DNA of 64,000 nt from Deltaproteobacteria bacterium (GCA_016930075.1 JAFGHS010000012.1:1-64000); one strand, 5' to 3'; positions 2,921-32,900 are shown, numbered from the stretch's first letter. A program made the numbers and translations. Notes: generated from the letters alone by a model not told the origin.

Positions 2921-4336
2921 CTATACTCTGCTTTCGTAATAGCCGATCATTTTGCTCAGAGCCCTGGCCGCCCGGCTTATGGTCGGGTAAACGGCAAACC
3001 TGTTATCAATCAGTTTTTGCTTCATATCGGCCGTCAGTTTAAGAAGCTGTTTCAATTCTCTGGTCCGGCCTTTGACCATTTCCTGAAATACGAAAACCGT
3101 CGGTTTCCCATCTTCGAGATAAGTGAAAAATTGTTCAACATGTTCATCCATAGAAAATTTTTCGCCCACCTTGTTCCAGGGAATGCTGGTAAACGCCATA
3201 ATCGCATCGAAGGCCGGATGCTCCACCATCATTCTTCCGATTTGGATGGCGGCTTCCCTCTCTCCCATGGATATGGAGAAATCGGCGGGATTTCCGATCC
3301 AATCCCAGATGGAACTGCCTTCTTTTCTTAAACGGTCTCTGATATCCCGGGGAAAAGGGATGACATTCAGACCGGCTTCTTCACACTGATCGGCAGCCAG
3401 AACACTGCTTCCGCCGCTGCCGCCGACAACTGCAAGATTTCGGCCGGAACAGGACGGCAGAAAATAGAAGGCGACGGCCAGGTCCACCAGATCTTCAAGA
3501 TTATCGCAGCTGATCGCCCCAGTCTGTTTAAACAGGGCCTGCCAGACCTGCTGCGAACCGGCCATGGAAGCGGTGTGCGACGCTGTGGCACGGGTTCCTG
3601 CGCTTCCCCTCCCCCCTTTGACGATGACGACGGGCTTCAAGGCTGTCGCCCTTTTGAGCGATTCAAAAAATCTGACACCGTCCCTAACACCTTCGATATA
3701 CATGAGAATCATCGTCGTCTCTGTATCTTGCGCAAGATACTCGAGATAGTCGCATTCATTCAAATCGACGGCGTTGCCGTAACTGATCGCCTTGCTGAAG
3801 CGGACGCCGCGCCGGGCCGCAAAATTAACAACCTCGCCGACCACCTGACCGCTTTGCGATATAAAACCCACGCCGCCGGTCTCTTTCGGCCAGCCCGTAT
3901 TAAAGGCAATGCCCATTTTGGGGTAATAGACCCCCATGCAATTGGGGCCGATAATTCGAATATCAGCGGCTCTGGCCCTTTTTAGCACTTCATATTCCAA
4001 CTCCGTGGCATCCTTCCTTCCTGTTTCACTGAAACGGGCTGTAAAAAGATGGATGGCCCTGACGTTCTTTTGGGCGCAGTCCTCTATCAAATCCAAAATA
4101 AACTGTGAGGGTATGGAAGAGATGACATAATCAACGGGACCCGGGATAGCGCTGACTTTGGGATAGGCCTTGAGCCCCCCGATTTTTTCATATTTCGGAT
4201 TAACGGGATACAATTTCCCCTTAAAGGGCATTTCCTGAAGGGGCCTGAGAAACCCTCCCCCCCGGCCGACATCGGAAGCACCAACAATAGCGATAGACCT
4301 TGGGTGCAGAACTTCCTCCAGTGAATAAAGAGACAT
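2921..4336 (-). CDS. Acyl-CoA synthetase (NDP-forming) alpha-type protein, second paralogue
   Basis: A second 471-residue protein of the same architecture as the 969-2384 product: CoA-binding domain (HPRSIAIVGASDVGRGG near residue 11, IGPNCMGVYYP near 133), flavodoxin-like ligase domains and the conserved histidine in TASHTASMAG (about residue 263). The sequence GYGN-type stretch ISYGNAVDLNECDYLEYLAQD is clearly homologous to the paralogue's SFGNGTLLDSADFLEYFAQD, but overall identity is moderate, so this is an old duplication rather than a recent one. No ATP-grasp beta domain is fused or adjacent. The neighbouring 3-hydroxyacyl-CoA dehydrogenase suggests a role in acyl-CoA metabolism. The start follows AGGGAGG. 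It has its own promoter-like sequence at 4390-4419. Confidence 0.8.
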   Translation of the reverse strand: MSLYSLEEVLHPRSIAIVGASDVGRGGGFLRPLQEMPFKGKLYPVNPKYEKIGGLKAYPKVSAIPGPVDYVISSIPSQFILDLIEDCAQKNVRAIHLFTARFSETGRKDATELEYEVLKRARAADIRIIGPNCMGVYYPKMGIAFNTGWPKETGGVGFISQSGQVVGEVVNFAARRGVRFSKAISYGNAVDLNECDYLEYLAQDTETTMILMYIEGVRDGVRFFESLKRATALKPVVIVKGGRGSAGTRATASHTASMAGSQQVWQALFKQTGAISCDNLEDLVDLAVAFYFLPSCSGRNLAVVGGSGGSSVLAADQCEEAGLNVIPFPRDIRDRLRKEGSSIWDWIGNPADFSISMGEREAAIQIGRMMVEHPAFDAIMAFTSIPWNKVGEKFSMDEHVEQFFTYLEDGKPTVFVFQEMVKGRTRELKQLLKLTADMKQKLIDNRFAVYPTISRAARALSKMIGYYESRV

Positions 4337-4389
4337 AAAACCTCCCTAAAAATAACGGTTTTGGAACCGGTTTAGATATTTGGCTGGTT

Positions 4390-4419
4390 CATGTAGGATA
4401 AAATAATGCCTTCTGTCAA
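4390..4419 (-). promoter_or_regulatory. Candidate sigma70 promoter for the 2921-4336 gene
   Basis: Perfect -35 TTGACA (4414-4419, minus strand), 18-base spacer, weak -10 TACATG (4390-4395). It lies downstream of the terminator of the dehydrogenase gene, consistent with an independent unit. Confidence 0.4.
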
Positions 4420-4472
4420 GGAAAGAGAAAAAAATCTATGATGTAAAAGCGTCTGATTTGTTCACAGAAAAG

Positions 4473-4502
4473 AAAAGGAGGCGATAACAATCGCCCCCTT
4501 TT
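4473..4502 (-). terminator. Rho-independent terminator of the dehydrogenase gene
   Basis: On the minus strand a strong stem formed by AAAAGGGGGCGAT and ATCGCCTCCTTTT closes over a four-base loop and runs into TTTTCTTTT. It lies about 70 bases after the stop codon at 4575. Confidence 0.75.
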
Positions 4503-4574
4503 AAATTGCTTAATACAAAAAACCGCTCGTCTGCAAATATGGACGCTCGATCCTTACGTCCGATTCCTCAATGG

Positions 4575-5342
4575 TTATTTCCAGCCGCCGCGTGCGCCTT
4601 TACCCATTCCCAAGGGGCCGGCCGGCCAGTTGAAGCCCGTCATCATGACGTTATCAACGTCTTCCGCCGTGGCAATGCCTTCCTGGACGATTTTCATCGC
4701 TTCCATCGTCAGAACGCGGTAGATGCGGTTGCCGATAAAGCCGGTGTCGCCGGGGACGTCTTTCACTTTTACCGTCAGTTTGCCCATCTTGCGGCCCAAC
4801 TCCATAATAATGTCTACGACCTCGGGAAGAACCTCAGCCGTATAAATGACCTCACAGCCCTTCATGATGCTGGCGGGGCTGAAGAAGTGCATGCCGAGGA
4901 AACGGTCTTTGCGGTTCGTTACCGCTGCGATGTCGGCGATGGTGTAGAAAGAGGTGTTGCTGGCAAAAATGGCTTCTTTTTTGACAACAGCATCCAGTTC
5001 CTTCCAGACTTTGAGTTTCAGGTCCTTGTTTTCCATCTGGCCGGGAGGACCACCAATCGCTTCGATTACGAAATCGCAATCCTTCAGGTCTTCAACTTTC
5101 GTGGTAACGCTCAGCAGGGCCGCTGCCTTGTCGACCTGTTCCTGGGTGAATTTTCCACGCTGGACGCCGCCGGCCAGTCCATAACGGCCGTTGATAATGC
5201 TGTCCTTTGTTTTGGCGACGATCTCGTCCGTCAGATCGCGGATAATCACTTTATACCCTGCCAGGATGGCCGACTGGCCGATTCCCTGGCCCATGATACC
5301 GCCACCGATTATCCCTATTGTTTTGATGTCGTCAATCTTCAT
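4575..5342 (-). CDS. hbd: 3-hydroxyacyl-CoA (3-hydroxybutyryl-CoA) dehydrogenase, C-terminally short
   Basis: NAD(H)-dependent oxidation of 3-hydroxyacyl-CoA, or the reverse reduction, in beta-oxidation or butyrate-type pathways. The N-terminal Rossmann fold is clear (IGIIGGGIMGQGIGQSA, residues 9-25). Catalytic features are present: SNTSFYTIADIA, the histidine in GMHFFSPASIMKGCEVI and the asparagine in GFIGNRI. At 255 residues it is about 25-30 residues shorter than most family members: after GFNWPAGPLGMG it ends in KGARGGWK instead of continuing through the last helices of the dimerisation domain. The following bases do not restore that domain in another frame, so this looks like a natural short variant. 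Promoter at 5540-5567 and terminator at 4473-4502 make it a single-gene unit. Confidence 0.85.
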   Translation of the reverse strand: MKIDDIKTIGIIGGGIMGQGIGQSAILAGYKVIIRDLTDEIVAKTKDSIINGRYGLAGGVQRGKFTQEQVDKAAALLSVTTKVEDLKDCDFVIEAIGGPPGQMENKDLKLKVWKELDAVVKKEAIFASNTSFYTIADIAAVTNRKDRFLGMHFFSPASIMKGCEVIYTAEVLPEVVDIIMELGRKMGKLTVKVKDVPGDTGFIGNRIYRVLTMEAMKIVQEGIATAEDVDNVMMTGFNWPAGPLGMGKGARGGWK

Positions 5343-16137: not shown

Positions 16138-18388
16138 TCAAAAGACGGAAAAAACAACCATATCCGTGGGCGGCATGACCTGTGCGGCCTGTGTACGGCG
16201 CGTCGAAAATGCCCTGAAGGATGTTTCCGGCGTGAAAGAGGTGAATGTCAACCTCGCCACGGCAAAGGCCACGGTGTTTCATGATCCGGAATGGGCCGGC
16301 GTCGGCGTCCTTAAGGACGTCATCCTCAATCAGGGGTACGAATACCTCGGTGTCCAGGATGACACGAAGGAGGACCCTATTGCGGCAGCCCGTGAAAAAG
16401 ACATCAGAGACCTGAAAATCAGATTTACCGTCGGGGCGGTTCTGAGTGTCGTCATTTTCATGGGATCCATGCAGCATTGGTTCCATTTCCTGATGGTCAT
16501 TCCCCGACAGGCCATGCTCATCGCTATGTTCATTCTTACGGCACCTGCGGTTTTCTGGGTCGGAAGCCGGTTTTATATTGGCGCCGTCAAGGCGGCCCGG
16601 CAAAAAACCACGGATATGAACACCCTGGTTGCCGTCGGCGCTTTGGCCGCTTATCTCTACTCCACCCTGGCGACTTTCTTTCCCCGTTTTTTTTCCGAAA
16701 CGGGCATGGCTCTCCATGTCTATTATGACGGCGCGGCCATGATCATTACCCTGATTATCCTTGGCAGGCTTCTGGAGGCCGTGGCCAGGGGGAAGACCTC
16801 CGCGGCTATTCAGAAGTTGATGGGATTGAAGCCAAAGACGGCGCGGGTGCTGCGCAACGGCGAGGAATCGGATGTCCCCGTGGATGAGGTACTGAAAGGC
16901 GATCTGATTATCGTGCGGCCGGGAGAAAAAATCCCCACGGACGGGGTGGTCGTCTCCGGACAATCGTCCGTCGACGAATCCATGCTGACCGGCGAAAGCA
17001 TGCCCGTGGGCAAGGGGAAAGGCGATACGGTTTTTGCCGCAACGATCAACAAAACGGGAAACTTCACCTTTGAAGCGACAAAGATTGGCCGAGAAACGGC
17101 CCTGGCACAGATCATCCGCCTCGTCGAGGAGGCACAGGGCTCCAAAGCCCCCGTTCAGCGCCTGGCCGACAAAATCGCATCCATTTTTGTCCCTGTCGTC
17201 TTCGGAATTGCGGCAGTTACTTTTATTATTTGGTACTGGTTCGTCCCGGAAGCCGTTTTCAGCCGAGCCCTTCTCAATGCCATCTCCGTTCTGGTCATTG
17301 CCTGCCCCTGCGCCCTGGGCCTGGCAACGCCCACAGCCGTCATGATCGGCACGGGTCTCGGGGCGGAAAACGGGATCCTCATCAAGGGCGCGGAAAGTCT
17401 GGAGAGGGCCTACAAGCTCACGACCGTCGTTTTCGATAAAACGGGCACCCTGACCAAAGGAGAACCGGAAGTGACGGACATCATCCCGGCATCGCATGAA
17501 ACACAGGAAATCCTTTTGAAGGCGGCCGTGTCCATTGAGGCGGCTTCCGAGCATCCCCTGGGGCAATCCATTTTAAAAAGAGGCCAAAAAGAAAATATCT
17601 TTCCTGACCCGATTGAACAATTCGAGGCGTTGACGGGCCTCGGCGCTAAAGCCGTCGTCAGGAATCAGCTCTCCTATCTGGGGAACCTGCGGTTGATGGA
17701 AAAGGAAGGCATCGATCTGAACGGTATGGGAGATGCGGCCTTGAAACTGGCCGCCGCAGGAAAGACATGCGTCTATGTGGCAGCAAATCATCGCGTTTTG
17801 GGCGTCATCGGCTTATCCGACGTTCCCAGGGAATCAGCAAAAGAAACCGTTATCCTGCTCAAAAAGATGGGACTTCAAGTGGCCATGATCACGGGAGACA
17901 ACCGCAAAACCGCCCAGGCCATCGGCGCATCTCTCCATATTGATCAGATCATGGCCGACGTCCTTCCCGGCGACAAGGCTGCGGAAATAAAACGCCTCCA
18001 GGCTCAGGGCCAGGTGGTGGCCATGGTGGGCGACGGCATTAATGACGCCCCCGCTCTAGCGGCCGCCGACATCGGCATCGCCGTCGGTGCGGGAACGGAC
18101 GTGGCGATTGAAGCGAGCGACATTACCCTCGTCAAAGACGATCTGCGTTCCGTCGCTCAGGCCATCAAACTGTCGCTTGCCACGATGAAAACGATCCGGC
18201 AGAACCTCTTCTGGGCCTTTATTTACAATATTGTCGGCATCCCCCTGGCTGCGGGCGCCCTGTATCCCTTTTTCGGCATCCTCCTCAATCCGGAATTCGC
18301 CGCCGCTGCCATGGCCGCCAGTTCCGTATCCGTCGTCAGCAATTCCCTGCGGCTCCGGAGAACATCATCCCTCTTTCTCAAAGTCTGA
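16130..18388 (+). CDS. copA: Copper-translocating P1B-type ATPase
   Basis: About 752 residues if started at the TTG at 16130, which overlaps the copZ stop; the longer open frame back to 16067 lies inside copZ and is unlikely. Exports Cu(I) across the inner membrane at the cost of ATP. Order of features: one N-terminal HMA domain with GMTCAACV (about residue 15), transmembrane helices, the actuator motif TGES, the metal site CPC (about residues 392-394, in [11 protein letters not shown]), the phosphorylated aspartate in DKTGTLT (about 436), SEHPLG and [10 protein letters not shown]. The last helices carry [11 protein letters not shown] and [17 protein letters not shown], the Cu(I)-specific YN and MxxSS signatures. 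The 3' end overlaps the convergent flavoredoxin gene by 24 bases. Confidence 0.95.
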
Positions 18389-19057
18389 TTTGCCAGCGCC
18401 GCAAACCGGACAGGTCCAGTCGTCAGGCAGGTCTTCAAATTTCGTCCCCGGTTTAATGCCGCCTTCAGGATCGCCCTTTTCGGGATTATAAACGTAGCCG
18501 CAGACGCTGCATGTGTAACTGGCCGATTTTTCGGCGGTTTGCTTGGGCTCTTCCTTCAGATACGTCGGGGCCGTCTTGGGGGCCTTGCCGCGTTTGACCT
18601 CATGGTAATAGGCATACGTCATGGGCTCTTCGTTGTTGTCGAGGACATCGCAATTTGTAACTTTGCCGATAAAGATCGTGTGGGTGCCGCAATCCAATGC
18701 GTTGATCACCTCCGCTTCAATATAAGCAATAATGGTATCCAGCAAAACAGGAACGCCCGTTTCTCCCATCTTAAAGTTCATCTCGGCAAATTTATTCATA
18801 TCCCTTCCGGATTTGAAACCGAATGTCCCGATAAACGGCATGGGCGTTGACTTCGATATGACCGACACGGAAAATTTCCGGCTGTCCTGAATGTATTCAT
18901 GCGTCAGATTCTGCTTGTTGATGCTGACGCCGATGGTTGGCGGTTCCGATGTCACCTGAAAAACCGTATTGGCGATCTGGCCGTTCATTTTTTCACCCTT
19001 GATGGAACTGATGACATAGAGGCCGTAACTGATCTTATGAAAAGCTGCCGTATTCAT
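18365..19057 (-). CDS. Flavin reductase-rubredoxin fusion (high-molecular-weight rubredoxin type)
   Basis: 230 residues from the ATG at 19057, which follows AAAGGAGA; a further upstream ATG would place the Shine-Dalgarno inside the gene. Residues 1-165 form a flavin-reductase-like FMN-binding domain (starting [15 protein letters not shown]). After a linker rich in Lys/Pro comes a complete rubredoxin: [17 protein letters not shown] and [14 protein letters not shown], supplying the Fe(SCys)4 site. The same fusion (Hrb of Moorella) passes electrons to flavodiiron proteins that reduce NO or O2. A defence role against O2/NO in an anaerobe is the likely function; the flavodiiron partner is not in the window. 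The 3' end overlaps copA. Confidence 0.88.
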
Positions 19058-19131
19058 GATTAAATCATCTCCTTTCAATGCTTTATCAAACTGTCCACCC
19101 GATTTTTTTGAGGGATCGGTCCTGTAAGAAT

Positions 19132-19160
19132 TTGATATAGGAGAAGAGGGGGCCTGTCAA
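19132..19160 (-). promoter_or_regulatory. Candidate promoter of the flavin reductase-rubredoxin gene
   Basis: Minus-strand TTGACA (19155-19160) followed 15 bases later by TATATC (19134-19139), or 17 bases later by TATCAA (19132-19137), about 75 bases before the start codon. Confidence 0.45.
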
Positions 19161-19273
19161 TCTTTTTCAACCATGCCGTCCCTGATATGGACATGCATTT
19201 TCTTTCTTGCACTTCGCTTGGCAGACATGATATGACGCAAACCGTCAAACGACAGTAGGGAAGCTGATGTCTC

Positions 19274-20329
19274 ATGAAACGTATTGAATCATTGCTGATT
19301 AAAGGGGAAACCCTTTCGAACGTGAAGAAACTCAAAGCCATGGCAAAGGAAACCGATTCTTTTGCCGTTTTGATTTTTGGGAGTCCCGATCCGGATGCCA
19401 TTGCATCCGGCATGGCTCTGCGCGAAATCATCCGGAAAAACGGCGCTTTGGTAAACTGCGATTTCATTGCAACCGAACCCGTCACGCGTCAGCAGAATAT
19501 CGAATTCATGCGGGCCATGAAGGTTCAAATCAAGCTTCTTCATACGGTTGATCTCAAATCCTATTGTCTTATTGCCGTTGTGGATGCGCAACCGTCTTTT
19601 TTCAACTCCCATTTAAACGGCATTAAGCCGCGCATCGTCCTGGATCACCACCCGAAAAAAAACGGCTGCGACGCGGAGCTTGTCGACATTCGCGACCATT
19701 ATGGCGCGCTGTCCACGATGATGACCGAATACCTCCTGGCCGCAAAAATCAAGATACCACGGAAATTATCCACCGCCCTGCTGTACGGGATCAAGTCGGA
19801 TACAAACAATTTTGAGCGGGACACGATTATTGAAGACGTCAGCGCCTATCGTCTCAACTACCGTCATGCCAACCGCCAACTTATCCGAAGAATCGAATTG
19901 AATCAGATACCAAACCCATATCTTAAATACTATGACCACGCCTTTCACCACCGGCGCCGTTACCGGGACAGAATCACCTGTTTTCTCGGCAAGGTGGAAA
20001 GCCCGGATGCCTGCGTCCAGGTGGCGGATTTCTTTCTTCATTTCATCGACATCTATTATGTCGTCATTGCCGGCATCGTAAAAGACAGATTGATCATTAC
20101 ATTCCGGGGAGACGGCTATCGCCAGGACTGCGGCGCCATTGCCGCCAAGGCATTCGAACGCTACGGCAGCGCCGGGGGACATAAGAGCGCCGCCAGGGTG
20201 GAAATCCCCTTAGAGACCCTCCGTGAAATCATTGGGGATGATTTTTCTCAAGGCGCTGTAGATCATTTTCTATTGAATCGCCTGCGGCGCAAAAGGGGCG
20301 ATACCACAAACGGCAAGAAAAACGGCTGA
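19274..20329 (+). CDS. DHH-family phosphoesterase (DHH-DHHA1)
   Basis: 351 residues. The N-terminal DHH domain shows FGSPDPDAIASGMAL (motif I), VVDAQP (motif II), LDHHPKK (the DHH motif, about residue 124) and GIKSDT (motif IV), all metal-binding positions of the NrnA/RecJ superfamily. The C-terminal DHHA1 substrate-binding domain ends in the expected GSAGGHKSAA (about residue 300). Family members hydrolyse short oligonucleotides, cyclic dinucleotide products or pAp. Motif I lacks the usual preceding histidine (H-x-x-x-D-x-D). The substrate cannot be told from context: the gene is transcribed alone, divergently from the rubredoxin fusion and convergently with pyrG. Confidence 0.8.
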   Translation: MKRIESLLIKGETLSNVKKLKAMAKETDSFAVLIFGSPDPDAIASGMALREIIRKNGALVNCDFIATEPVTRQQNIEFMRAMKVQIKLLHTVDLKSYCLIAVVDAQPSFFNSHLNGIKPRIVLDHHPKKNGCDAELVDIRDHYGALSTMMTEYLLAAKIKIPRKLSTALLYGIKSDTNNFERDTIIEDVSAYRLNYRHANRQLIRRIELNQIPNPYLKYYDHAFHHRRRYRDRITCFLGKVESPDACVQVADFFLHFIDIYYVVIAGIVKDRLIITFRGDGYRQDCGAIAAKAFERYGSAGGHKSAARVEIPLETLREIIGDDFSQGAVDHFLLNRLRRKRGDTTNGKKNG

Positions 20330-20367
20330 TTCGGGCGCCAGGGGTGGTGGATCAGCGGCCAGCAGGA

Positions 20368-22007
<1,640 letters not shown>

Positions 22008-25000
22008 CTATCGACCCTGTAAGGATTCTTTGATTTGTTCCGCAACAACCTCGACCGGCTCCCCAATGAGGACATCAAGAGGCACCCGATTCAGGTATTC
22101 ATCATGCCAGGTCATATTATATTCGTTGATCAGGTTGCGAATATCGTTGAAGCGATCCCCGATGATCTCCTTCTTTTCCCCGATGGTCAGGGCCTCATTG
22201 AAGGAAACATGGAGGAGGAGCAGATGAGCGATTCCGACCCCCTCGCCGAGAAGGGGGATGATGACAATCGCCGCACCGTCCGATTTCCCTTTGCCGACAT
22301 AAACAGCGCCGGTCCGGACAATGGTTTTTTTCGTCCCCATCAGGACGCCTGATGTATCCACCCGTGACGTCATTTCACGGGCAATGCCGCTTTTCTCCCG
22401 GATGGCAATAGTGGAACCATCGTTGGGCTTTCCTTCGGCATCCAGATGATCAACATCATACAGGGTATAACCGCTGACGGCCGCGATGGCCTTCTGCATT
22501 CTGCCCATGGCCAGGACATTTCCGCCGGCAACGGCCTTTGCCGGAAAGGCCAGCGCCGCCAGGAGGTCGAAGATAACGCCCCTGAGGGGCTGTTCCTTCC
22601 GGCTGGTGCCGACGGTAACCGTTTTGGCCTGATGCTTGATGGCGTCTATGGGCCGCGACGTTTCATCGACGGCATGCCCCAAAGCAACATCGAGCAGATC
22701 GATGGGCGATGCCAATCCGTCATCCGCCTTGAAATCGTGCCGGAAATCTTCAAGGAGAAGTTTGCCGACGGCGTATTTTAAAAGAAGCGCAATATCGGCA
22801 ATGGTTTTGCTGTTCATAAAGGCAAAAGCGCCGTCATTTCTGCGCTGATTAAAATTGACGGCAAACTCGCCGACGATGCGGCGGAAATTTGCGTCAAAAA
22901 GCCGGTCATAGAGGGAATAATTCTTCCGGCTCTGCTCCCGGATGGCCAGGTCGAGGCGCGTCCGGAACTCACGGAAAAACCAGGCATCCTCGTCAATGGT
23001 GCAGGCGGCGTAATATCCCCACAGGTGACCGGCCAGGGTGTTCAGGATTACCGACCGGTGTGCATCCGCTTTGGGAAGACCGATCACGGTATCGGCAATC
23101 TTGTCGAAGCGGTTTTCGCCTTCATCGGCAAAGACGACGACCGACGCCTTGTGGGCTTTGAAAATGGCCGCATCTTTGATGATGTCTCCGATGACGGTTT
23201 CCTGATTCCCGCCGGCGCAGACAAGGATCAGCGGCTCTGCCGACAGATCGATATGTTTCTTGTTTTCCACCACATCGGAAGAAATTGTTTTGTAGCACAA
23301 TTCGCTCAATTTGATCCTGATTTCATCCGCCGCCACCTTATTGGGGCCGCTGCCCACAATGGCCCAGTATTTTTTTTGACCGGCCATCCGCCGGGCCGAT
23401 TCCCGTATCTTATCCTTTTTCGCCAGGACATCATTCATCATGGCAGGGACTTTCTCAAGATTGACAAGTTCCTGGGCAATCACATCGTCGGAGACCGTTT
23501 TCAACAACTGGGCAAAAAACAAGGCCAGGACGCTTCCCGCGATGATTTGGGAATAGAACGCCTTGGTGGACGCGACGGACATTTCGATGTCCCGGCCGTC
23601 GCTTGTATAAAACACCCCCTGAGTTTTGGTTGTAATGTCCGACTGCCGCCGGTTCACAACGGCAATGGCCGAAGCCCCCCGTTCGACGGCCATAGCGACG
23701 GCGCGATTGGTGTCCGTTGTCGTTCCCGACTGGGTAATGGGGATAATCAGGGTGTCCCGGAAATCGTCCTTCAGGCAAAAACCGCTCAACTCGGAGGCGA
23801 TCTTGGCCCCGATCTTAATGGCTTTTCCCCCAAGATACCGTTCCATGGCGCCGGCAACAGCCGACGCCGCCACCGCCGCCGTCCCGTGACCGATGACGAA
23901 AATCTGTTTGATGCCGCCGGCAACAAGGGATGCCTTGAGCTTATCGGGAACAACATCGGCGCCGAGATTGAAGGCGACCTGCCTTTGGCCGTTTTCATCT
24001 GCGGAGATGCGATATTTGCCGCGAAGCGTTTTGCGGACGGATTGGGCGGCTTCCGTCACTTCTTTGAGGAAATAATGAGGGTAATGACCCCTGTCGATGT
24101 CCCGCGTTGTGATTTCGGCCCTGCGGATCTCCGTCTCGTCGATTTTAAGCGGTGTGCCGTCATAGAAAAATGCTGTGATCCCTTCCGTACCCCCGGCGGA
24201 TTCCTGGTCAAGGATGAAGACCTGACCGGCCTGGTCGGGATTTTTCCCGGGCGACGGCATCTCTCCATCCATCTTGAAAAAAAGAGGCGTCCCTTCCACG
24301 AGACCGTAAAGCTCGGAAGAAAAGATGTATTGATCGGGCGCAACGCCGATATAGATGGACTGGCCGCTTCCGCGGAGGGCCAGAAATACCTTGCCCGGCT
24401 CCACATTGCTTACCATGGCGATGGCGTGGGAGCCCTCAAAATCATTGACGGCCAGGCGGAAGGCCTCCGCCAGGTCATGACCGATATAAAGATATTTTTC
24501 AATCTGCAAGGGGATCATCTTGGTATCCGTCGTCAATTCCGGGGCGATGGCATCTCCCGCATCCAGTGTGTGGCGGAGCGTTTCGTAATTGTCGATGTCG
24601 CCGTTCAAAACGCAACTGACGGACCAGTCGCCGGCGCCGTAATGGGGATATGACCTGACCGGTGAATGCCCCTGCGTAAAATTATTGACGGGATGGCCGT
24701 TTTCCTCTGTTATCGATCCGACAGACGCCCATCGGGTGTGGGCGATAGACGCTTCAAAAGACACCACCTGACCGGCAAATTCCTGGAATATGCGATCCCG
24801 GGAAATCGCCTCACGCAAATCGCGGCAATTGAGCCCCAACTCGCCGATAATGGAGGATGTCTTGTAAGTAAAGGATATGGCCGTGTCCGCCGGTGCAGGT
24901 TTCTTCTTGGGTGCTCTCACCGTTAATCCGATGGAACCGCTTATCAGATCGGAAGGTTTTGTCCTTGCTGTAAATAGCTCATAGAGCCCTTTTCGTTTAA

Positions 25001-25847
25001 GCTTTTCTACGACCTGGGAAAATGCCTTGCCGTCTTCAAGGGTAAACGACAATTGGACGCCCGCCGAATCCCTTCCCCTGACCTCAAGGCGGTCCAGACA
25101 GTTCAGGAGGAAATTCATTTCGCGGTATTTCTTCAGGGCTGCAGGCGATAACATGCCGACCGTATCGACACCGGCAAGCTTCTTGATGCTGTCGACATTT
25201 TCCAGAATGTCTTTCTTCACGGCCCAGGCGACGTCTTTGAGGGCGATCAGCCTTGCGTTGATCACCTCCATATCGGCCGTGTAAAAGCGCCCGGCGTTCT
25301 CTTCGAGGATTATGTCCTCCTGTTTGAGGAACAAATCCATCTTCGCCGACAGGTCGGATAATTGCCCCGTTTTTTGGACATCGAAGAAGAGATGCTCGAA
25401 GGGAAGCGCACTTTTTAAAAGCAAAATATTCTTGTCCATCTCCGTGATGGCATCGTCGCCGCCAAGGTAGCGATCCGAACCGACGGCGCCGGAAAGCACG
25501 CTTTGCAGGTCATATTTCAGGGCATGGGCAAAATATTTAGAGAGGCTCGCACCGGCATCTGCCGCTTTGGATTTCCTTTTTGACTTCTCAACGGGCCTGT
25601 TGACGGAAAGGATTCCGGCCAGACCGCAAAAGAAGACATGTTTTAAAAAAGGGAAAAGAATGATGGAAGGCGCCGGTGCGCTGCAGGGATTGCGGCCGAT
25701 GCAGATCGGCCACCGGGTCAAAAAATCGAAAATTTTATGTACTACATTCAACGTCCTCAACCTCAAGGCGCAGCCGAAAACCCGGGCGCCACATATGGCG
25801 CAAAATCTTCTTTTCCGTCCCTGAGACGGATAGATAATCGCCTTCAT
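22008..25847 (-). CDS. Giant GlmS-like protein: split class II amidotransferase plus two SIS domains
   Basis: The open frame has 1,279 codons, but conserved sequence begins only at FFCGLAGILS, whose cysteine codon is at 25626-25628 (codon 74); the first 73 codons look non-coding and contain no other ATG. From that Cys the protein has about 1,206 residues, twice normal GlmS. The cysteine resembles the Cys2 nucleophile of class II amidotransferases. The next amidotransferase motifs, AHTRWASVG and LNGDIDNYE, appear only about 295 residues later (about 70 in GlmS), so roughly 225 residues are inserted within the glutaminase domain. Two SIS domains follow (FVIGHGTAAVAASA; WAIVGSGPNKVAADE). RPIDAIKHQAKTVTVG resembles the GlmS C-terminus that carries the catalytic lysine, after which about 200 further residues are not recognised. 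Most likely activity is glutamine-dependent amino-sugar formation or a derivative of it. Confidence 0.75.
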   Translation of the reverse strand: MKAIIYPSQGRKRRFCAICGARVFGCALRLRTLNVVHKIFDFLTRWPICIGRNPCSAPAPSIILFPFLKHVFFCGLAGILSVNRPVEKSKRKSKAADAGASLSKYFAHALKYDLQSVLSGAVGSDRYLGGDDAITEMDKNILLLKSALPFEHLFFDVQKTGQLSDLSAKMDLFLKQEDIILEENAGRFYTADMEVINARLIALKDVAWAVKKDILENVDSIKKLAGVDTVGMLSPAALKKYREMNFLLNCLDRLEVRGRDSAGVQLSFTLEDGKAFSQVVEKLKRKGLYELFTARTKPSDLISGSIGLTVRAPKKKPAPADTAISFTYKTSSIIGELGLNCRDLREAISRDRIFQEFAGQVVSFEASIAHTRWASVGSITEENGHPVNNFTQGHSPVRSYPHYGAGDWSVSCVLNGDIDNYETLRHTLDAGDAIAPELTTDTKMIPLQIEKYLYIGHDLAEAFRLAVNDFEGSHAIAMVSNVEPGKVFLALRGSGQSIYIGVAPDQYIFSSELYGLVEGTPLFFKMDGEMPSPGKNPDQAGQVFILDQESAGGTEGITAFFYDGTPLKIDETEIRRAEITTRDIDRGHYPHYFLKEVTEAAQSVRKTLRGKYRISADENGQRQVAFNLGADVVPDKLKASLVAGGIKQIFVIGHGTAAVAASAVAGAMERYLGGKAIKIGAKIASELSGFCLKDDFRDTLIIPITQSGTTTDTNRAVAMAVERGASAIAVVNRRQSDITTKTQGVFYTSDGRDIEMSVASTKAFYSQIIAGSVLALFFAQLLKTVSDDVIAQELVNLEKVPAMMNDVLAKKDKIRESARRMAGQKKYWAIVGSGPNKVAADEIRIKLSELCYKTISSDVVENKKHIDLSAEPLILVCAGGNQETVIGDIIKDAAIFKAHKASVVVFADEGENRFDKIADTVIGLPKADAHRSVILNTLAGHLWGYYAACTIDEDAWFFREFRTRLDLAIREQSRKNYSLYDRLFDANFRRIVGEFAVNFNQRRNDGAFAFMNSKTIADIALLLKYAVGKLLLEDFRHDFKADDGLASPIDLLDVALGHAVDETSRPIDAIKHQAKTVTVGTSRKEQPLRGVIFDLLAALAFPAKAVAGGNVLAMGRMQKAIAAVSGYTLYDVDHLDAEGKPNDGSTIAIREKSGIAREMTSRVDTSGVLMGTKKTIVRTGAVYVGKGKSDGAAIVIIPLLGEGVGIAHLLLLHVSFNEALTIGEKKEIIGDRFNDIRNLINEYNMTWHDEYLNRVPLDVLIGEPVEVVAEQIKESLQGR
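25694..25711 (-). promoter_or_regulatory. Structured leader before the GlmS-like gene (three hairpins)
   Basis: Ahead of the first conserved codon (25628) the transcript could form three separate hairpins: GGCCGAT/ATCGGCC at 25694-25711, GCGCCA/TGGCGC at 25786-25801 and TCCGTC/GACGGA at 25814-25830. They do not match the glmS ribozyme core as I remember it. The arrangement suggests a regulated leader, but no function is demonstrated. Confidence 0.3.
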
Positions 25848-25929
25848 TACACATATCCCAAAGCATCAGCAAGTTATGTACCATAAATATCGTTATGGGA
25901 AAATCGTCTAAAAACACGAAATAATTCAT
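25735..25929 (-). CDS. Possible small ORF in the leader of the GlmS-like gene
   Basis: A 64-codon frame starting MNYFVFLDDFPITIFMVH and ending VEDVECST. Amino-acid composition is protein-like and it fills the otherwise empty leader, overlapping (in another frame) the doubtful N-terminal extension of the GlmS-like frame. There is no convincing Shine-Dalgarno and I recognise no family, so it is recorded only as a candidate, for instance a leader peptide or a decayed fragment. Confidence 0.2.
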   Translation of the reverse strand: MNYFVFLDDFPITIFMVHNLLMLWDMCNEGDYLSVSGTEKKILRHMWRPGFRLRLEVEDVECST

Positions 25930-26029
25930 GATTGTTTCAGGGGCGATGCACAGAAGAAAACATTTTTGTTCAACGGGGCCGTCAATGACACATATTTGTA
26001 TTTCAAAACTCCGTTTAGTATGTATGGAA

Positions 26030-27310
26030 TCACCGCTCTGAATAAGACGGCAGACAGTTCATGGCTTTTTCGACGATTCCGTCACAAATATTCCGGAGCC
26101 ATTGGGTTCCCAGGGCCGTCAATGCGGAATCCAACCCCTGAACGACCTCAATATAACCGCCGCCCTTGTCCATGGCCGGTTTAAGCCCCTCAATAAAAAG
26201 CTTTCTGTTTCCCCCGTCGATCTCGTCCTCGCAGGCGGCAGTAAAGCACGCCTTTAATTGCGGCCAATTTTCCATCAGCTCATTGTACTGCCTAAGAAGG
26301 GTTTTCTTTTTATGGCCCTTCAAGATCTGCCCGCCAATGCCGATCGAGGCCTTCATCTTTTCTGAAAGAGCCTGGAACCTCGTCAACCTCTCATCAACAG
26401 CCGATTGCAGGACCTCCATCGCCCCCTCGTATAGCGGCAGCCCCATGTCCTGCGTTGCAAAAAAAGGTTTCCGGACATGGATGTACCATTGCTTCAGGGC
26501 CAACAGATTGGCAAGGTAGCAGCAATTATTATACACCCGCCGCTTGACATCGCCGTAAAACCCCATGTGAAATGCTTTTTCCGGGGAACCGATACTTCCA
26601 TTTTGCATTCCCAGAAGTTTCCCGCCCTCCGGGCTGTCGCCGCGATAGACGGTCCCTGCCGCGATCAGAGTCCCGTAGCCGATCCTTGCGGGGCCGACGA
26701 TCCCCCCCTGACCGCCGAGGAAGATAGGCGGCTGATTCAGCATGACGCCCCTGGGGACGTCGCCGATCAGGGATGCCGTCGCCTTATCCTGATTGGGCGT
26801 ATAATTGAAATGAATGTAGGAACTCCCCACTTCGCTGTGATTCTTCCGGCTCGTACCGCCCGCCATGAGACAATCACAAAAGTTGATCAAACTGCCCAAG
26901 GTAACGAAGGGAAAAAGGATGGTCTGCTTCAGACCGACCGTATGGCTGCCGTTGGCCTCCTCTTCAAGAAGACATCCCTCCCGAACCTGCGCCCCGCAGG
27001 CCATATTGGCTTTTTCCAGAAAAACCGACGCCTTGAAAAATCCCCCTTTGAGTTCCACTTTCGGACCCAGTTGACAATCGGCAACCGTGACGGGAGACTC
27101 ATAACCCAGTTTAACACCTGCGGATATCAGTGTTTTAGGGCCGTATATCTTCGTCCCGCTATATAAGGCCACGCCGCTTCCCGAAATCCTTTCGATCTGT
27201 ACATCCCCGCCGATTTCCACGGCATGGGGATTGGGGATATGGACGCCTTTATCCATGAGGCGAATAACCTGTCCCGACAGGATACCGGCATTGGATTCTA
27301 TTGAATTCAT
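26030..27310 (-). CDS. GlmU-like left-handed beta-helix (hexapeptide repeat) protein
   Basis: 426 residues. Residues about 30-260 are a series of hexapeptide-type turns resembling the acetyltransferase half of GlmU, with HSEVGSSYIHFNYTPNQDKA, LIGDVPRGV and VGPARIGYGTLIAAGTVYRGD in the order and spacing expected for the GlmU active-site region. There is no N-terminal nucleotidyltransferase domain. The last 170 residues are predicted largely helical and unrecognised. It probably acts on an amino-sugar or nucleotide-sugar substrate, as the gene stands directly upstream of the giant GlmS-like gene. The start follows AAGGA and lies five bases after the stop of a Fis-type regulator. Confidence 0.65.
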   Translation of the reverse strand: MNSIESNAGILSGQVIRLMDKGVHIPNPHAVEIGGDVQIERISGSGVALYSGTKIYGPKTLISAGVKLGYESPVTVADCQLGPKVELKGGFFKASVFLEKANMACGAQVREGCLLEEEANGSHTVGLKQTILFPFVTLGSLINFCDCLMAGGTSRKNHSEVGSSYIHFNYTPNQDKATASLIGDVPRGVMLNQPPIFLGGQGGIVGPARIGYGTLIAAGTVYRGDSPEGGKLLGMQNGSIGSPEKAFHMGFYGDVKRRVYNNCCYLANLLALKQWYIHVRKPFFATQDMGLPLYEGAMEVLQSAVDERLTRFQALSEKMKASIGIGGQILKGHKKKTLLRQYNELMENWPQLKACFTAACEDEIDGGNRKLFIEGLKPAMDKGGGYIEVVQGLDSALTALGTQWLRNICDGIVEKAMNCLPSYSER

Positions 27311-27315
27311 TGTTT

Positions 27316-27618
27316 TTATTCCTTGCGGCCGTCTAAACCCAATTTCACCATTTTGCTTTGGAAAGTGTTTCTGTTGATGCCCAGATACGCGGCGGCGGCT
27401 GTTTTGACGTTATTGCTGTTTTTCAGGGCCGTCTTGAAAAGGCAGCGTTCCACCATGGTGATGATTTCGTCGTACAACCTGCTTTTCCCCATACCCGCAG
27501 AGCAAAGAACGGTTGCGATTTCTTCCAGTTTTTTTTCAATAATGGCATCGACGACGCATGGCGGCTTTTCCTTAACGCCCCTGGATGCAACAGCACTCCC
27601 GGAATTTTTTTCACTCAT
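27316..27618 (-). CDS. Fis-type helix-turn-helix DNA-binding protein
   Basis: About 100 residues. The C-terminal half is a Fis/NtrC-C-terminal type helix-turn-helix (ALKNSNNVKTAAAAYLGINRNTFQSKMVKLGL), with an N-terminal variable part. It has no AAA+ or receiver domain, so it is a stand-alone Fis-like regulator or nucleoid protein. A TTG at 27624 is better spaced from the GAAGGG sequence than the ATG at 27618, so the true start could be two codons earlier. Its position immediately ahead of the GlmU-like gene suggests it may control this operon. Confidence 0.75.
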   Translation of the reverse strand: MSEKNSGSAVASRGVKEKPPCVVDAIIEKKLEEIATVLCSAGMGKSRLYDEIITMVERCLFKTALKNSNNVKTAAAAYLGINRNTFQSKMVKLGLDGRKE

Positions 27619-27667
27619 GATCAATGAATTCCCTTCTCAAAACGAATATGAATTGAAATAAATGATG

Positions 27668-28189
27668 TTATGACAAAGGATAAAATTTTGTGACCATAAT
27701 TCCGCATATGACAAGCGCGGCCACCCACATCAAAATCATGTTGGATATATCCCGAACGGGATGTTCTATCTGCTCCATTAATTGTTCTTCGACTTTTTCT
27801 TTATCCAAATGATCGCAAATATCCTTCACCAGGCCGGAAAAATTTTCATAGGCATTGGATACGATATGAAATCCTTTGACCGTTGTGAGAAGGACATAAA
27901 CTTTTTTTCGGATGATGAGATGTCCCGCATGGGTAATATCTTCCCAGAGGAGGTCTTTGACGCGGAATAATTTTTGGATAACCAGCCCCTCATGGCTGAT
28001 CGTGACTTTGCGATAAAGCCCCTCAAGAAAAAAATAAAGAAACGGGACAACAAGAACAATAAGGACGACCCATTCCGTTGTCGAACCTTTGAAAAAAATG
28101 GAGACGAAAAGGAGTGCAAAAAGGAGGACGATATCAATGCCGAGCGGCACTAATAATCCCTTCCTTATTTTATAAAGATGTGGAGTCAT
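27668..28189 (-). CDS. Membrane protein with PH-like domain
   Basis: 173 residues. Two hydrophobic helices near the N-terminus (LLVPLGIDIVLLFALLFVSIF and WVVLIVLVVPFLYFFLEGLY, positions about 11-31 and 40-60) are followed by a soluble beta-rich stretch (KVTISHEGLVIQKLF, DLLWEDITHAGHLII, VYVLLTTVKGFHIVS), as in YcxB/bacterial PH-domain membrane proteins. A third helix (ISNMILMWVAALVICGIMV) closes the protein. No catalytic motif is seen. It lies between moaC and the Fis-type gene with gaps of about 45 bases, so it is likely co-transcribed; function unknown. Confidence 0.65.
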   Translation of the reverse strand: MTPHLYKIRKGLLVPLGIDIVLLFALLFVSIFFKGSTTEWVVLIVLVVPFLYFFLEGLYRKVTISHEGLVIQKLFRVKDLLWEDITHAGHLIIRKKVYVLLTTVKGFHIVSNAYENFSGLVKDICDHLDKEKVEEQLMEQIEHPVRDISNMILMWVAALVICGIMVTKFYPLS

Positions 28190-28232
28190 CGCGTGATATC
28201 TTCTGAAGTAAAAGGCCGATTAAAAAAGAAAT

Positions 28233-28712
28233 TTACACGTTTCTCACAAAAAAGCCGCTTTTGCCGCCGCGCTTTTTCATTAATCTGATATCTGATATGA
28301 CCATCCCCCGATCAGCCGCCTTGCACATATCGTAGATGGTCAGGGCCGCAACGGCGACAGCCGTCATGGCTTCCATTTCCACACCCGTTCTGCCGACAGA
28401 TGTCGCTTTTGCCTCAATACGGATCTCACCCTGTTTAACGTCGCATTCAAATTGAACATCTACATCCGTCAGTTCCAGAGGATGGCACAAAGGAATAAGA
28501 TCACCGGTTTTTTTCGCCGCCATGATCCCGGCAATTCGGGCAGCGCCGAAAACGTCCCCCTTGGGCATGCCGTCTTCCGCTATCAAAGCTGCTGTCTCCG
28601 GGCTCATCAAAACCCTTCCTTCGGCAACCGCCTCGCGGACCGTCGGGGCTTTGGCTGTCACATCGACCATTTTTGCCTTACCTTTTGCATCAAGGTGGGA
28701 TAATGCAGCCAT
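28233..28712 (-). CDS. moaC: Cyclic pyranopterin monophosphate synthase MoaC
   Basis: 159 residues, family length. Converts the MoaA product to cyclic pyranopterin monophosphate in molybdenum/tungsten cofactor synthesis. Conserved segments are present: [16 protein letters not shown] near the N-terminus, [13 protein letters not shown] (about residue 75), [23 protein letters not shown] (the most conserved part, positions about 112-134) and a C-terminal lysine-rich [12 protein letters not shown]. No other moa genes are adjacent. A promoter-like sequence lies directly upstream (28768-28796), so the minus-strand run through pyrG may begin here. Confidence 0.96.
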
Positions 28713-28767
28713 GAGATATACCGTCCCGCAGAATCAGGAAATCACTCCCGGTTGGAAATTTTGGCAA

Positions 28768-28796
28768 AACTTAGCACAGGCGATTTGCCCAGTCAA
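28768..28796 (-). promoter_or_regulatory. Candidate sigma70 promoter of moaC
   Basis: Minus-strand TTGACT (28791-28796), 17-base spacer, TAAGTT (28768-28773), about 55 bases before the moaC start. Confidence 0.5.
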
Positions 28797-28857
28797 GCAG
28801 GTTTAAAAATATTTTTTTTGCAACCCGGATCATTAAAATATTCCCGTCCCTTATCCA

Positions 28858-29841
28858 TCAATCAGGGATATGACCGACCTCTCTGATGAGCCGCAGGTGC
28901 AATGCATCTTCCGGGCAGACATGGGTACAAATGCCGCATCCTATGCATGCGCCGCCCGTCTCTGCCTGATTTTCGGCATTCAACATGATGTTCTTCATGG
29001 GACACTCATCGATACACAGGCCGCAGCCCCTGCAGGCGTCCATTTCCACGAAGGACCGGTATCCGTTGGGGTTGACCTGGCCCCACAACGACCCCGCGGT
29101 GTTGTTTCTTTCAAAGGACAGGGCAACGCAGCAGCAGCCGCAGCAGTTGCAGATAACCGTCCCCATAGCGGCCCGATTCTTCGGCCTTCCGGAGAATCGC
29201 CTTGGCTTCATGAAGATCGATTTTCCGGTCCGTGCCCCGCTTGATTGCATAATTGGCGCCTTTGTTCATTTGCATGTCTCAAGGGGCTTGTTGCAGTTAC
29301 CCATGATCAGCCGGCAGGGACAGTTCGCCACAGCAAGGCTTGCTGCTTTTTCCAGAATGCTGACGGCATCTTCATAGGCCAAGACCTGATTTTTTACTTC
29401 AATCATTTCGTTGATGGGAATGACGCGAAAAACGGGATTCCGGTTTGATGACACGCGAAACGCATGGTATTGCAGGTATTCCTCTTCAATATAAAGCCGC
29501 CATGTCTTTATCATGTCCGGCGGCGCCTCGGGTCAGAGGGACGTTAAGTCGTGGAATTGGATAATGCTTCTGCACATGTGGTAACCCTTCGAGCCTTCAT
29601 AAAGCAAGCCTTTGCGGAATAACAGCCGGGTCATTTGATCAATTTCAACCACCGGTTTTCCGAAACGATCAGCCAAGTCCTGCCCTGTCGCCGGCAAGGC
29701 GTTGAGCAGTTCCGCCTCTTCCGGCCAACAGAGAGTCTTCCAGATTTCCGGGACGTATTTGGATTTCTCAATACCAATCTTTTTCGTTAATTCCTCAGAA
29801 ACATCCGTTGTCATCATAACCCCATTATGAGTTTCATTCAT
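28858..29841 (-). pseudogene. Degraded gene for a 4Fe-4S electron-transfer protein
   Basis: Three consecutive minus-strand fragments make one ancestral protein of about 328 residues. The first (29841-29533) begins MNETHNGVMM, contains KYVPEIWKTLCWPEEAELL and ends FHDLTSL at a TGA; translation resumes in the same frame with PEAPPDMIKTWRLYIEEEY, so a Trp codon (TGG) has probably become TGA. The second fragment ends after NCNKPLETCK at about 29266; here the frame shifts to NKGANYAIKRGTDRK and IDLHEAKAILRKAEESG, then shifts back near 29165 to TVICNCCGCCCVALSF. The last part has two ferredoxin motifs, CRGCGLCIDECP and CIGCGICTHVCPEDA. Total length is divisible by three because the two shifts compensate. 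Related intact proteins are common in Desulfobacterota; their exact function is not known to me. Confidence 0.8.
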
Positions 29842-29947
29842 TCAATATCAAGAATTCCCGCCGACAGACGTTTCTTCATAACTGATGGTGATTGAGCATT
29901 GGATTAACGTCAATTTGTGTCAAAAAAACTTTGATACGGTAAACTTT

Positions 29948-32900
29948 CTACTCTATATTCCAATTCAAATTTTTGGCTTTGAATAACTCATCATAGGGTG
30001 GAACTCCGGCAAAAAGCCTGTAAAAGTTGTTGATATCCGTAATGTTCAAAGTATACATGATTTGATACATATCAAGGATGTTGGTAAAAATGATCAGCGC
30101 CCCATTATGATAGCTGATGGCATAATTGTCGTAATTAGCGGTCAGACCGCCGGGGGTAATGGTGTAACCGCCGGGAGTGATTGCTCCCTGCGAGTTGCCG
30201 CCGTAGACCAGAGTGCCGGTAAGTACAGAGGATGTCTCGCCGTTGATAAGGCCGCTGTAGCGTACGCCGTTGCCGCCGTTGTAGGGCAGGCCGTCGTAAA
30301 CCTTGCCGTCCACATTGGCGGTGATGCTTAGCGCTGCCGGGTTCACCGCCAGTACCCCGTGATGATAGCTGATGGCGTAGTTGCCGTGATTGGCCGTCAG
30401 TCCCCGGGGAACGATGGTGTAGCTGCCGGTATTGATGGCGCCCTGCGAGTTGCCGCCATAGGCCAGGGAGCCGCCCAGCACGGAGGAGGTCTCGCCGTTG
30501 ACAAATCCGCTGTAGAGGACACCGTTGCCGCCCCTGTAAGCCAGGCCGTCGTAGGTCTTGCTGTCCGCATTGGCAGTAACGCTCAATGCGGCGGGGTTTA
30601 CCGTCAGTGTGCCGTCAATAAAGCTGATGGTATAGTTGCCGTGATAAGCCGTCAGTCCGCTGGGGATAATGGTATAGTCGCCGGTATTGAGGGCGCCCTG
30701 CGAGTTACCCCCATAAGCCAAAGCGCCTCCCAGGACAGAGGATGTCTCGCCGTTGACGAATCCACTGTAGCTTACGCCGTTGCCGCCGGAGTAGGCCAGG
30801 CCGTTATAGGTCTTGCTGAAATCATTGGCCGTAACGTTCAGAAGAGCAGGATTGACTGTCAGCGTGCCGTCCATAAAGCTGATGGTATAGTTGCCGGAGG
30901 ACAGCCCACCCGGGGTGATGGCATAACTGCCGGTGTTGATTGCGCCCTGTGAATTGCCGCCATAGGCCAGAGAGCCGGACAGCACGGAAGATGTCTCGCC
31001 GTTGACAAAACCGCTATAGAGGACACCGTTACCGCCCCTGAAAGCCAGACCGTTATAGGTCTTGCTGAAATCATTGGCCGTAATAGTCAGGGTAGCGGGA
31101 TTGACCATCAGCGTGCCGTTACGATAGCGGATGGTGTAGTTGCCGTGATTGGCCGTCAGTCCGCCGGGGGTGATGGTGTAGCCGCCGGTGTTGATTGCGC
31201 CCTGCGAATTGCCGCCATAGGCCACTGTGCCGGAAAGGACGGAGGTGGATGTCTCGCCGTTGACGAAGCCGCTGTAGAACACGCCGTTGCCGCCTAAGTA
31301 CGCCAGGCCGTTGTAGGTCTTGCTGAAATCATTGGCCGTAACGTTCAGAAGAGCAGGATTGATCGTCAGCGTCCCGTCCATAAAGCTGATGGTGTAGTTG
31401 CCGTGATTGGCCGTCAGTCCGCCGGGGGTGATGGTGTAGCCGCCGGCGTTGATGGCGCCCTGCGAATTGCCGCCATAGGCCAGTGTGCCGGAAAGGACAG
31501 AGGAGGACGTCTCGCCATTGACGAAGCCGCGATAGATTACGCCGTTGCCGCCGCTGTAAGCAAGGCCGTTATAGGTTTTTCTAAAATCATTGGCCGTAAC
31601 GTTCAGAAGAGCAGGATTGATCGTCAGTGTTCCTTCGATAAAGCTGATCGTGTAGTTGCCATGCTTGGCTGTAAGTCCACTGGGAATAATATCATAGCTG
31701 CCGGCATTGGTGGCGCCCTGTGAGTCGCCGCTGTAGGCCAGTGTGCCGGTCAGAACGGAGGATGTCTCGCCGTTGACGAATCCGCTGTAGCTTACGCCGT
31801 TGCCGCCCAGGTAATACAGACCATTATAGGTTTTACTGAAATCGTTGGCGATAACGCTGAGCGGAGCGGGGTTGATGGTGAAAGCCGTAGCGTTGCCCGC
31901 AGCCTGCATGAACACGTAGTTGCCGTGATTGGCGATGAGACCCGAGCCGATGATGCTATAGCTGCCGACATTGCTGGTACTGATCGCGTTGGTTGTAAAT
32001 GTTGCCGCTCCGGTAGTGACGTCAGCAAGCAATTCGCCGTTGACAAAGCCGGTTACACTGCCCGTAAGTGCAGGATTGGCCGCGCCATACAGGCGGTCAG
32101 CCTCATTTGCGCTATACGTCAGAATGGCAGGGGTCACTGTCAGCATTCCGTTAATAAATCTGATGGTGTAGTTGCCGTCATTGGCGGTCAAACCGCCGGG
32201 GATGATGGTGTAATTGCCGGCGTTGATCGCCCCCTGCGATGTTCCTCCATAAGAAAGAGAGCCGCCAAGCACGGAGGATGTCTCGCCGTTGACAAAGCCG
32301 CTATAGATGACGCCGTTTCCGCCGCTGTAGGCCAGTCCATCATAGGTCTTTCTGAAATCCCTGGCAGTGACGGTCAGCGCGGCGGGGTTGATCGTCAGGG
32401 CGCCATTGACATAGCTGATCGTGTAATTGCCGTCATTGGCGGTCAGTCCGCCTGGGATGATCGTGTAGTTGCCTACGTTTTTCGCGCCCTGTGATGTTCC
32501 GCCGTAGGAAAGAGAACCGCCCAGTACGGAAGATGTTTCCCCGTTGACGAAGCCGCTGTAGACCACGCCGTTTCCGCCGAAGTAAGCCAGACCGTTATAG
32601 GTTTTGCTGAAATCATTGGCCGTGACGGTCAGCGCGGCGGGGTTGATGGTCAGGGTGTTATCGACGTAGCCGATATCATAGCCCTGTTGATGAGAGTAAT
32701 AGCCGCCGGGGGTAATGTCATATAAACCTGCGTTAATTCCTTCCGGCGGGTCGACGTTGTAGACCAGTGTCCCGAGCAGCATGGAAGGTGAAGGTGTTTC
32801 TCCATTGGCAAAGCCGCTGTAGGTTACACCGGCGTCACTGCTGTAGGCCTGTCCGTCATAGGTCTTGCTATACGGGTTGGCGGTCACCGTCAGGGGGGTG

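Follow-up and report, generated by a model that had tools for sequence, protein, structure and literature searches.

The giant GlmS locus

The gene that concerns us here lies on the minus strand of the window – the whole stretch of 64,000 nucleotides of deltaproteobacterial DNA that was analysed – where positions 22008–25847 form an intact open reading frame, recognised from its sequence and homologues as a giant GlmS (glutamine--fructose-6-phosphate amidotransferase). Read from the only upstream ATG, the product has 1279 amino acids; from its catalytic Cys to the stop codon it has 1,206 residues – the length that an earlier note on this DNA had given, and that translation bears out – compared with about 608 in standard GlmS. 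Within its own genome, the protein matches only itself. Next to it, also on the minus strand, lies a gene for a left-handed β-helix protein (26030–27310), discussed below.

The codon of the catalytic Cys1 (25626–25628, opening the motif CGLAGIL) is preceded by an N-terminal leader, a probable propeptide (25629–25751), delineated by sequence and by a motif in fixed register in 69 of 71 relatives; once the leader is removed, Cys1 is expected, from the relatives and the motif, to be the N-terminal nucleophile. Insertion 1 follows (25092–25592, mature residues about 13–179), all-helical in the predicted structure and without a known Pfam family, and then the RGRDSAG motif, whose R184 corresponds to R26 of Escherichia coli GlmS, with the region that holds insertion 2 (24735–25079; placed by predicted structure, Pfam and sequence). 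The glutaminase active-site block (24525–24743) – HTRWAS with R299 and W300, then H312, N342, G343 and D368 – was assigned from relatives and profile comparison. The earlier note had described a glutaminase domain split by some 225 residues, and such a split is indeed present: HTRW falls at mature residues 297–300 and NGD at 342–344, about 225 residues further along than their counterparts in E. coli GlmS, and the approximately 226 extra residues come in two pieces, 158 before RGRDSAG and 68 between RGRDSAG and HTRW.

The isomerase half (23001–24026), with the motifs TQSGTTTDT and SVASTKAF, the residues E769, K773 and E776, and H792, is supported by Pfam, NCBIfam, structure and profile comparison. 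Pfam finds one glutaminase and one SIS domain in the whole protein; both of the SIS domains proposed earlier are recovered by the NCBIfam GlmS models and by structure. Insertion 3 (22659–22992, from predicted structure and sequence) is helical; it adds about 111 residues to the stretch that leads from the second SIS domain to the GlmS-type C-tail RPIDAIKHQAKTVTVGTS (22605–22658, from conservation and motif), whose K1002 corresponds to E. coli Lys603. The lysine segment and the tail of about 200 residues seen in the earlier reading are both there, as AKTVTV at K1002 followed by 204 residues; insertion 3 and the conserved leader go beyond that reading. The final α/β domain (22011–22604) has no known Pfam family and shows, in structure searches, a weak resemblance to the GAF/PAS fold. 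This architecture is neither a product of chance nor a misassembly, because 55 of the 60 genomes from the order share it and the register of the leader is kept in 69 of 71 GTDB loci.

An Rfam scan of positions 19000–30000 gave no match, the glmS ribozyme included, and promoter and terminator scans of the region stayed near chance level. Two other minus-strand genes of the window deserve mention: positions 29948–35875 encode a secreted-adhesin-like protein of 1975 amino acids with a haemagglutinin-type N-terminus and many tandem repeats of the type NDFSKTYNGLAY, and positions 18365–19078 encode a protein that joins a flavin-reductase-like domain to a CxxC...CPVCG domain of the rubredoxin type.

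Catalytic residues and predicted fold

Profile alignment to E. coli GlmS equates R299, W300, H312, N342, G343 and D368 of the glutaminase half with R73, W74, H86, N98, G99 and D123, and E769, K773, E776 and H792 of the isomerase half with E481, K485, E488 and H504; C1 and R184 were matched to C1 and R26 by motif. K1002 lies in HQAKTVTV, the counterpart of the C-tail sequence NLAKSVTV of GlmS, and was assigned from the shared AK[ST]VTV motif. Thus the glutaminase residues (Cys1, R26, R73, W74, N98, G99, D123) and the isomerase residues (E481, K485, E488, H504) are complete, and Lys603 of the C-tail has a counterpart by motif, the place of K1002 in the active site being a prediction. Almost all catalytic residues that were checked are present, the replaced positions being H77 and S303 of E. 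coli GlmS (V303 and A584 in the giant protein). Across 55 relatives, with 43–64% identity to the window protein, the catalytic residues are invariant, as are K1002 and its neighbours. Roles in GlmS have been described for Lys485, Glu488, Trp74 and the C-tail (PMC7948480).

A profile built from 55 giant proteins matches standard GlmS with a probability of 100 (E 3e-53). The NCBIfam GlmS models cover both halves of the protein, albeit at about half their cut-offs: with 224.5 bits, it stays below the curated threshold of TIGR01135 (418 bits), a low score for which the insertions may account in part. The giant protein appears to do the same job as GlmS, yet it falls outside the NCBI equivalog as defined; because of this score the most fitting name for it is a new architectural variant, and for the same reason annotation of the TIGR01135 type will miss the GlmS step in these organisms.

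The AlphaFold2 model, which covers residues 1–1200 (mean pLDDT 85.5, pTM 0.75), has low confidence at 781–789 (the isomerase histidine loop) and at 1002–1013 (the C-tail, including K1002). Of the full-length matches, E. coli GlmS superposes best (2j6h, E 1e-25, TM 0.79 on the target), followed by human GFAT-1, and on the strength of these two matches the model contains the complete GlmS architecture as well as a fold of the glutaminase type – the outcome of the structural comparison that the earlier note had proposed.

The leader before Cys1

The conserved leader 5′ of Cys1 is about 41–60 residues long. Among the 71 GTDB loci with an uncut 5′ side, 69 have it in frame and in a gap-free register, with G-23 (64/69), P-20 (52/69), I/V-11 (69/69), F-9 (58/69) and P-8 (69/69); the window leader carries G-23, P-20, I-11, F-9 and P-8. 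None of these 69 loci has ATG, GTG or TTG directly before the Cys. Leaderless relatives are rare: three (L038, L111 and L002) start with ATG-TGC and a distant one (L130, 37% identity) with GTG-TGC, mostly with a ribosome-binding-site-like sequence upstream. In the window, TTG is the only kind of start codon between -31 and -46; since relatives have an ATG near -42 to -48, translation likely begins at one of the TTG codons at -41, -44 and -46 (25751, 25760 and 25766).

Class II amidotransferases work with a Cys at the N-terminus, from which the preceding residues are cleaved off (PMC9140057). Taken together with the conserved register and the leaderless relatives, this makes a propeptide the most likely role of the leader, whose cleavage we infer. 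The papers that we searched contain no report of a leader on GlmS.

Distribution and replacement of standard GlmS

Of 60 Syntrophales genomes, 55 carry the giant form, two of these 55 as remnants only. Among the best 80 of more than 500 relatives, named records include Syntrophus, Smithella and Syntrophaceae (Syntrophales) and, further afield, members of Desulfobacterales such as Desulfatitalea and Desulfosarcina. The genome-wide search for a normal glmS that had been suggested earlier found no standard GlmS above the curated cut-off in the own genome of the window (92% complete) or in any of the 60 genomes of the order, all 14 controls being positive; two genomes (G006 and G050) have neither form. 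In a broader set of 296 Desulfobacterota genomes, the giant form occurs in 38 and the standard form in 243, with both in one (37 giant only, about 242 standard only). Of the 38, eight belong to the order sample, where the standard form is absent, and 30 were searched singly, with G214 the only genome to have both. The two forms are thus mutually exclusive (Fisher p = 3e-33, with the kinship of the genomes uncorrected, the giant form being spread across many families).

The giant form fills the GlmS niche of its genome and, because no standard GlmS was found in this genome or in the 60 of the order, is most likely the housekeeping enzyme. For the same reason, the alternative or dedicated amino-sugar pathway that the earlier note had envisaged finds no support, whereas the placing of the GlmU-like gene in the same pathway does. 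Searches of the literature for a GlmS that bears insertions or a leader, or comes from Desulfobacterota, returned nothing relevant among the papers covered.

Several loci stand apart from this general pattern. The two remnants both lie beside CTP synthase: one (L129, G048:C5:3000-9003, about 4095–4699, minus strand) keeps the first approximately 50 and the last 140 residues, the other (L133, G002:C125, about 4027–4164) only the last 46. As no other GlmS was found in these two genomes, which belong to one Syntrophales genus, they have possibly lost amino-sugar synthesis. In the sole genome with both forms, the giant gene (L131, G214:C29:16000-26000) sits in a polysaccharide-type cluster with ATP-grasp, NAD-dependent epimerase and flippase-like genes, which suggests transfer for a special purpose. 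A distant branch with 37% identity comprises the leaderless L130 (G344:C102) and the family f73 (G147, G328); no β-helix gene was detected there.

A linked β-helix gene and an apparently split GlmU

The product of the neighbouring gene at 26030–27310 resembles, by NCBIfam, conservation and neighbourhood, the acetyltransferase half of GlmU without the uridylyltransferase domain. It matches NF010936 over positions 247–438 (E 1.6e-10; below the full-length cut-off, as expected), has a block (SRxNHSEVGSSYIHFN) that is nearly invariant across relatives, and extends at its C-terminus by about 190 further residues. In most Syntrophales loci, this gene lies beside or near the giant gene, together with a Fis-like gene and CTP synthase; in one genome (G036) it immediately precedes glmM and a NagB-like gene. 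It is present in 35 of 38 genomes with giant GlmS and in 31 of 258 others (p = 1e-23), and because of the latter it is associated with, rather than tied to, the giant form.

Eight genomes were searched for the subsequent enzymes. All eight have GlmM over the cut-off and none has a bifunctional GlmU over the cut-off; seven, among them the genome of the window, give a strong match to a stand-alone uridylyltransferase half (265–282 bits) and the eighth (G196) a weaker one (112 bits). In the genome of the window, GlmU appears to be split into two stand-alone genes, the uridylyltransferase match at G000:C104:10413-11117 and the β-helix gene at 26030–27310. Read from these genes, UDP-GlcNAc is reached by the usual pathway, in which two enzymes have been rebuilt.

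The added parts

In the AlphaFold2 model, a bundle of helices alone makes up insertion 1, insertion 3 is likewise helical, and the last domain has an α/β fold. Pfam searches with each inserted part and with 55 relatives gave no coherent family, PHROGs yielded a single GlmS-length family of unknown function, and a PDB sequence search with the C-terminal profile gave no significant relative. A structure search with the C-terminal 354 residues returned only weak matches, many of them to GAF, PAS/LOV and Cache sensor domains; the GAF/PAS matches in Foldseek lie at E 0.03–0.3 (best GAF match E 0.05, probability 0.85), and a library of viral structures also listed GAF proteins, equally weakly and none with E < 0.001. 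GAF identity was not accepted, because comparison with profiles of GAF domains from the same genome gave a P of 0.04, equal to that of a control pair. A sensor-like nature of the C-terminal part is thus weakly hinted at by the model: a lead, not a finding.

The earlier note had suggested that the insertion and tail might host a second activity or a regulatory domain. An additional catalytic activity within the insertions lacks support, since no Pfam or PDB relative was found; a regulatory role, at which the GAF/PAS-like matches of the last domain hint only faintly, is possible. The most likely role of the C-terminal domain and of the helical insertions lies in assembly or allosteric control and not in a further reaction, although this is the weakest step in our reasoning.

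Proposed function and its alternatives

Very probably, the giant GlmS is the only glucosamine-6-phosphate synthase of the cell, in an enlarged architecture and with a housekeeping role rather than one in a side pathway, its catalysis being predicted. It would be made with a leader of about 41–46 residues, whose removal – probably autocatalytic – would free Cys1 as the N-terminal nucleophile. Cys1, with R299, N342, G343 and D368, would then hydrolyse glutamine, and the ammonia would pass to the isomerase half, gated by W300 and the C-tail. There, as the conserved residues imply, E769, K773, E776, H792 and K1002 would convert fructose-6-phosphate into glucosamine-6-phosphate, from which UDP-GlcNAc would be reached through GlmM, the stand-alone uridylyltransferase and the linked β-helix acetyltransferase. 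A bolder version, which we find rather doubtful, extends this propeptide-activated GlmS with a C-terminal sensor domain that would bind a metabolite, perhaps UDP-GlcNAc, and would act jointly with the helical insertions to link GlmS to the two enzymes of the split GlmU, as an allosterically gated entry to cell-wall synthesis.

The large added domains and the low scores to GlmS models could also fit a paralogue with another amino-sugar product, for instance for a surface polysaccharide – the kind of cluster in which G214, a genome that also has standard GlmS, carries its giant gene – with glucosamine-6-phosphate coming from elsewhere, such as reverse NagB or scavenging. A NagB-like gene does lie 3′ of glmM in the genome of the window and in some relatives; however, NagB went undetected in 21 of 30 genomes with the giant form and over the cut-off in none of the 30. 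Along with the mutual exclusion between the giant and standard forms, the retention of the GlmS catalytic residues and the linkage to a GlmU-like acetyltransferase gene, this makes such a paralogue very unlikely.

Two further readings concern parts of the protein. That the region before Cys1 is no propeptide, either because the leader stays on or because an unusual start codon adjoins the Cys, might be entertained as the window offers only TTG between -31 and -46, but the leader motif keeps its register across families, start codons stand before the Cys in leaderless relatives and never in leader-bearing ones, and class II amidotransferases work with an N-terminal Cys, the preceding residues being removed (PMC9140057); we regard this reading as unlikely. 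Still less probable is a bifunctional protein whose insertions or C-terminal part form a second pathway enzyme: there are about 600 extra residues, and the C-terminal domain has conserved positions, but neither Pfam nor the PDB gave a relative for the added parts that were tested, separate genes encode GlmM and each half of GlmU, and the structural matches of the C-terminal part are weak and of the sensor type.

Peptidoglycan and lipopolysaccharide share a first committed precursor, which is the product of GlmS, an enzyme usually regarded as uniform across bacteria. Whole lineages of anaerobic Desulfobacterota – Syntrophales and many Desulfobacterales – appear to have swapped it for an enzyme of double size with a leader and added domains, along with a split GlmU. 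As a natural experiment, the giant form bears on how large insertions next to the active sites of a channelling enzyme can be accommodated and perhaps put to use.

Comparison with known systems

Eukaryotic GFAT (human GFAT-1/2, Candida albicans GFA) has the GlmS fold in common with the giant protein, as the structural match indicates. GFAT also contains an extra internal stretch, for which a regulatory role has been proposed (PMC7948480). In the human enzyme this stretch amounts to a single loop of about 46 residues at another site, whereas the giant GlmS has four larger additions and a leader. With bifunctional GlmU, the likeness is that of its acetyltransferase half to the linked β-helix protein, which differs in having no uridylyltransferase domain (apparently encoded by a separate gene) and in its approximately 190 extra C-terminal residues.

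Bacillus subtilis PurF and GltB are synthesised with a leader in front of the Cys, which becomes exposed once that leader has been taken off. As class II enzymes, PurF (amidophosphoribosyltransferase) and glutamate synthase GltB resemble the giant GlmS, whose own leader is probably likewise removed; their synthase domains differ, and the leaders are likened by description rather than by sequence.

With bacterial GlmS itself (TIGR01135 / PRK00331; E. coli GlmS, PDB 2j6h and 4amv), the giant form shares the domain order, the catalytic residues including the C-tail lysine, and the overall fold. By comparison, the giant protein is twice as long, has a leader before Cys1 and two insertions in the glutaminase domain, adds another insertion ahead of the C-tail and a domain behind it, and scores below the curated cut-offs. 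What is new in it is its size, its leader and its lineage-wide replacement of the standard enzyme.
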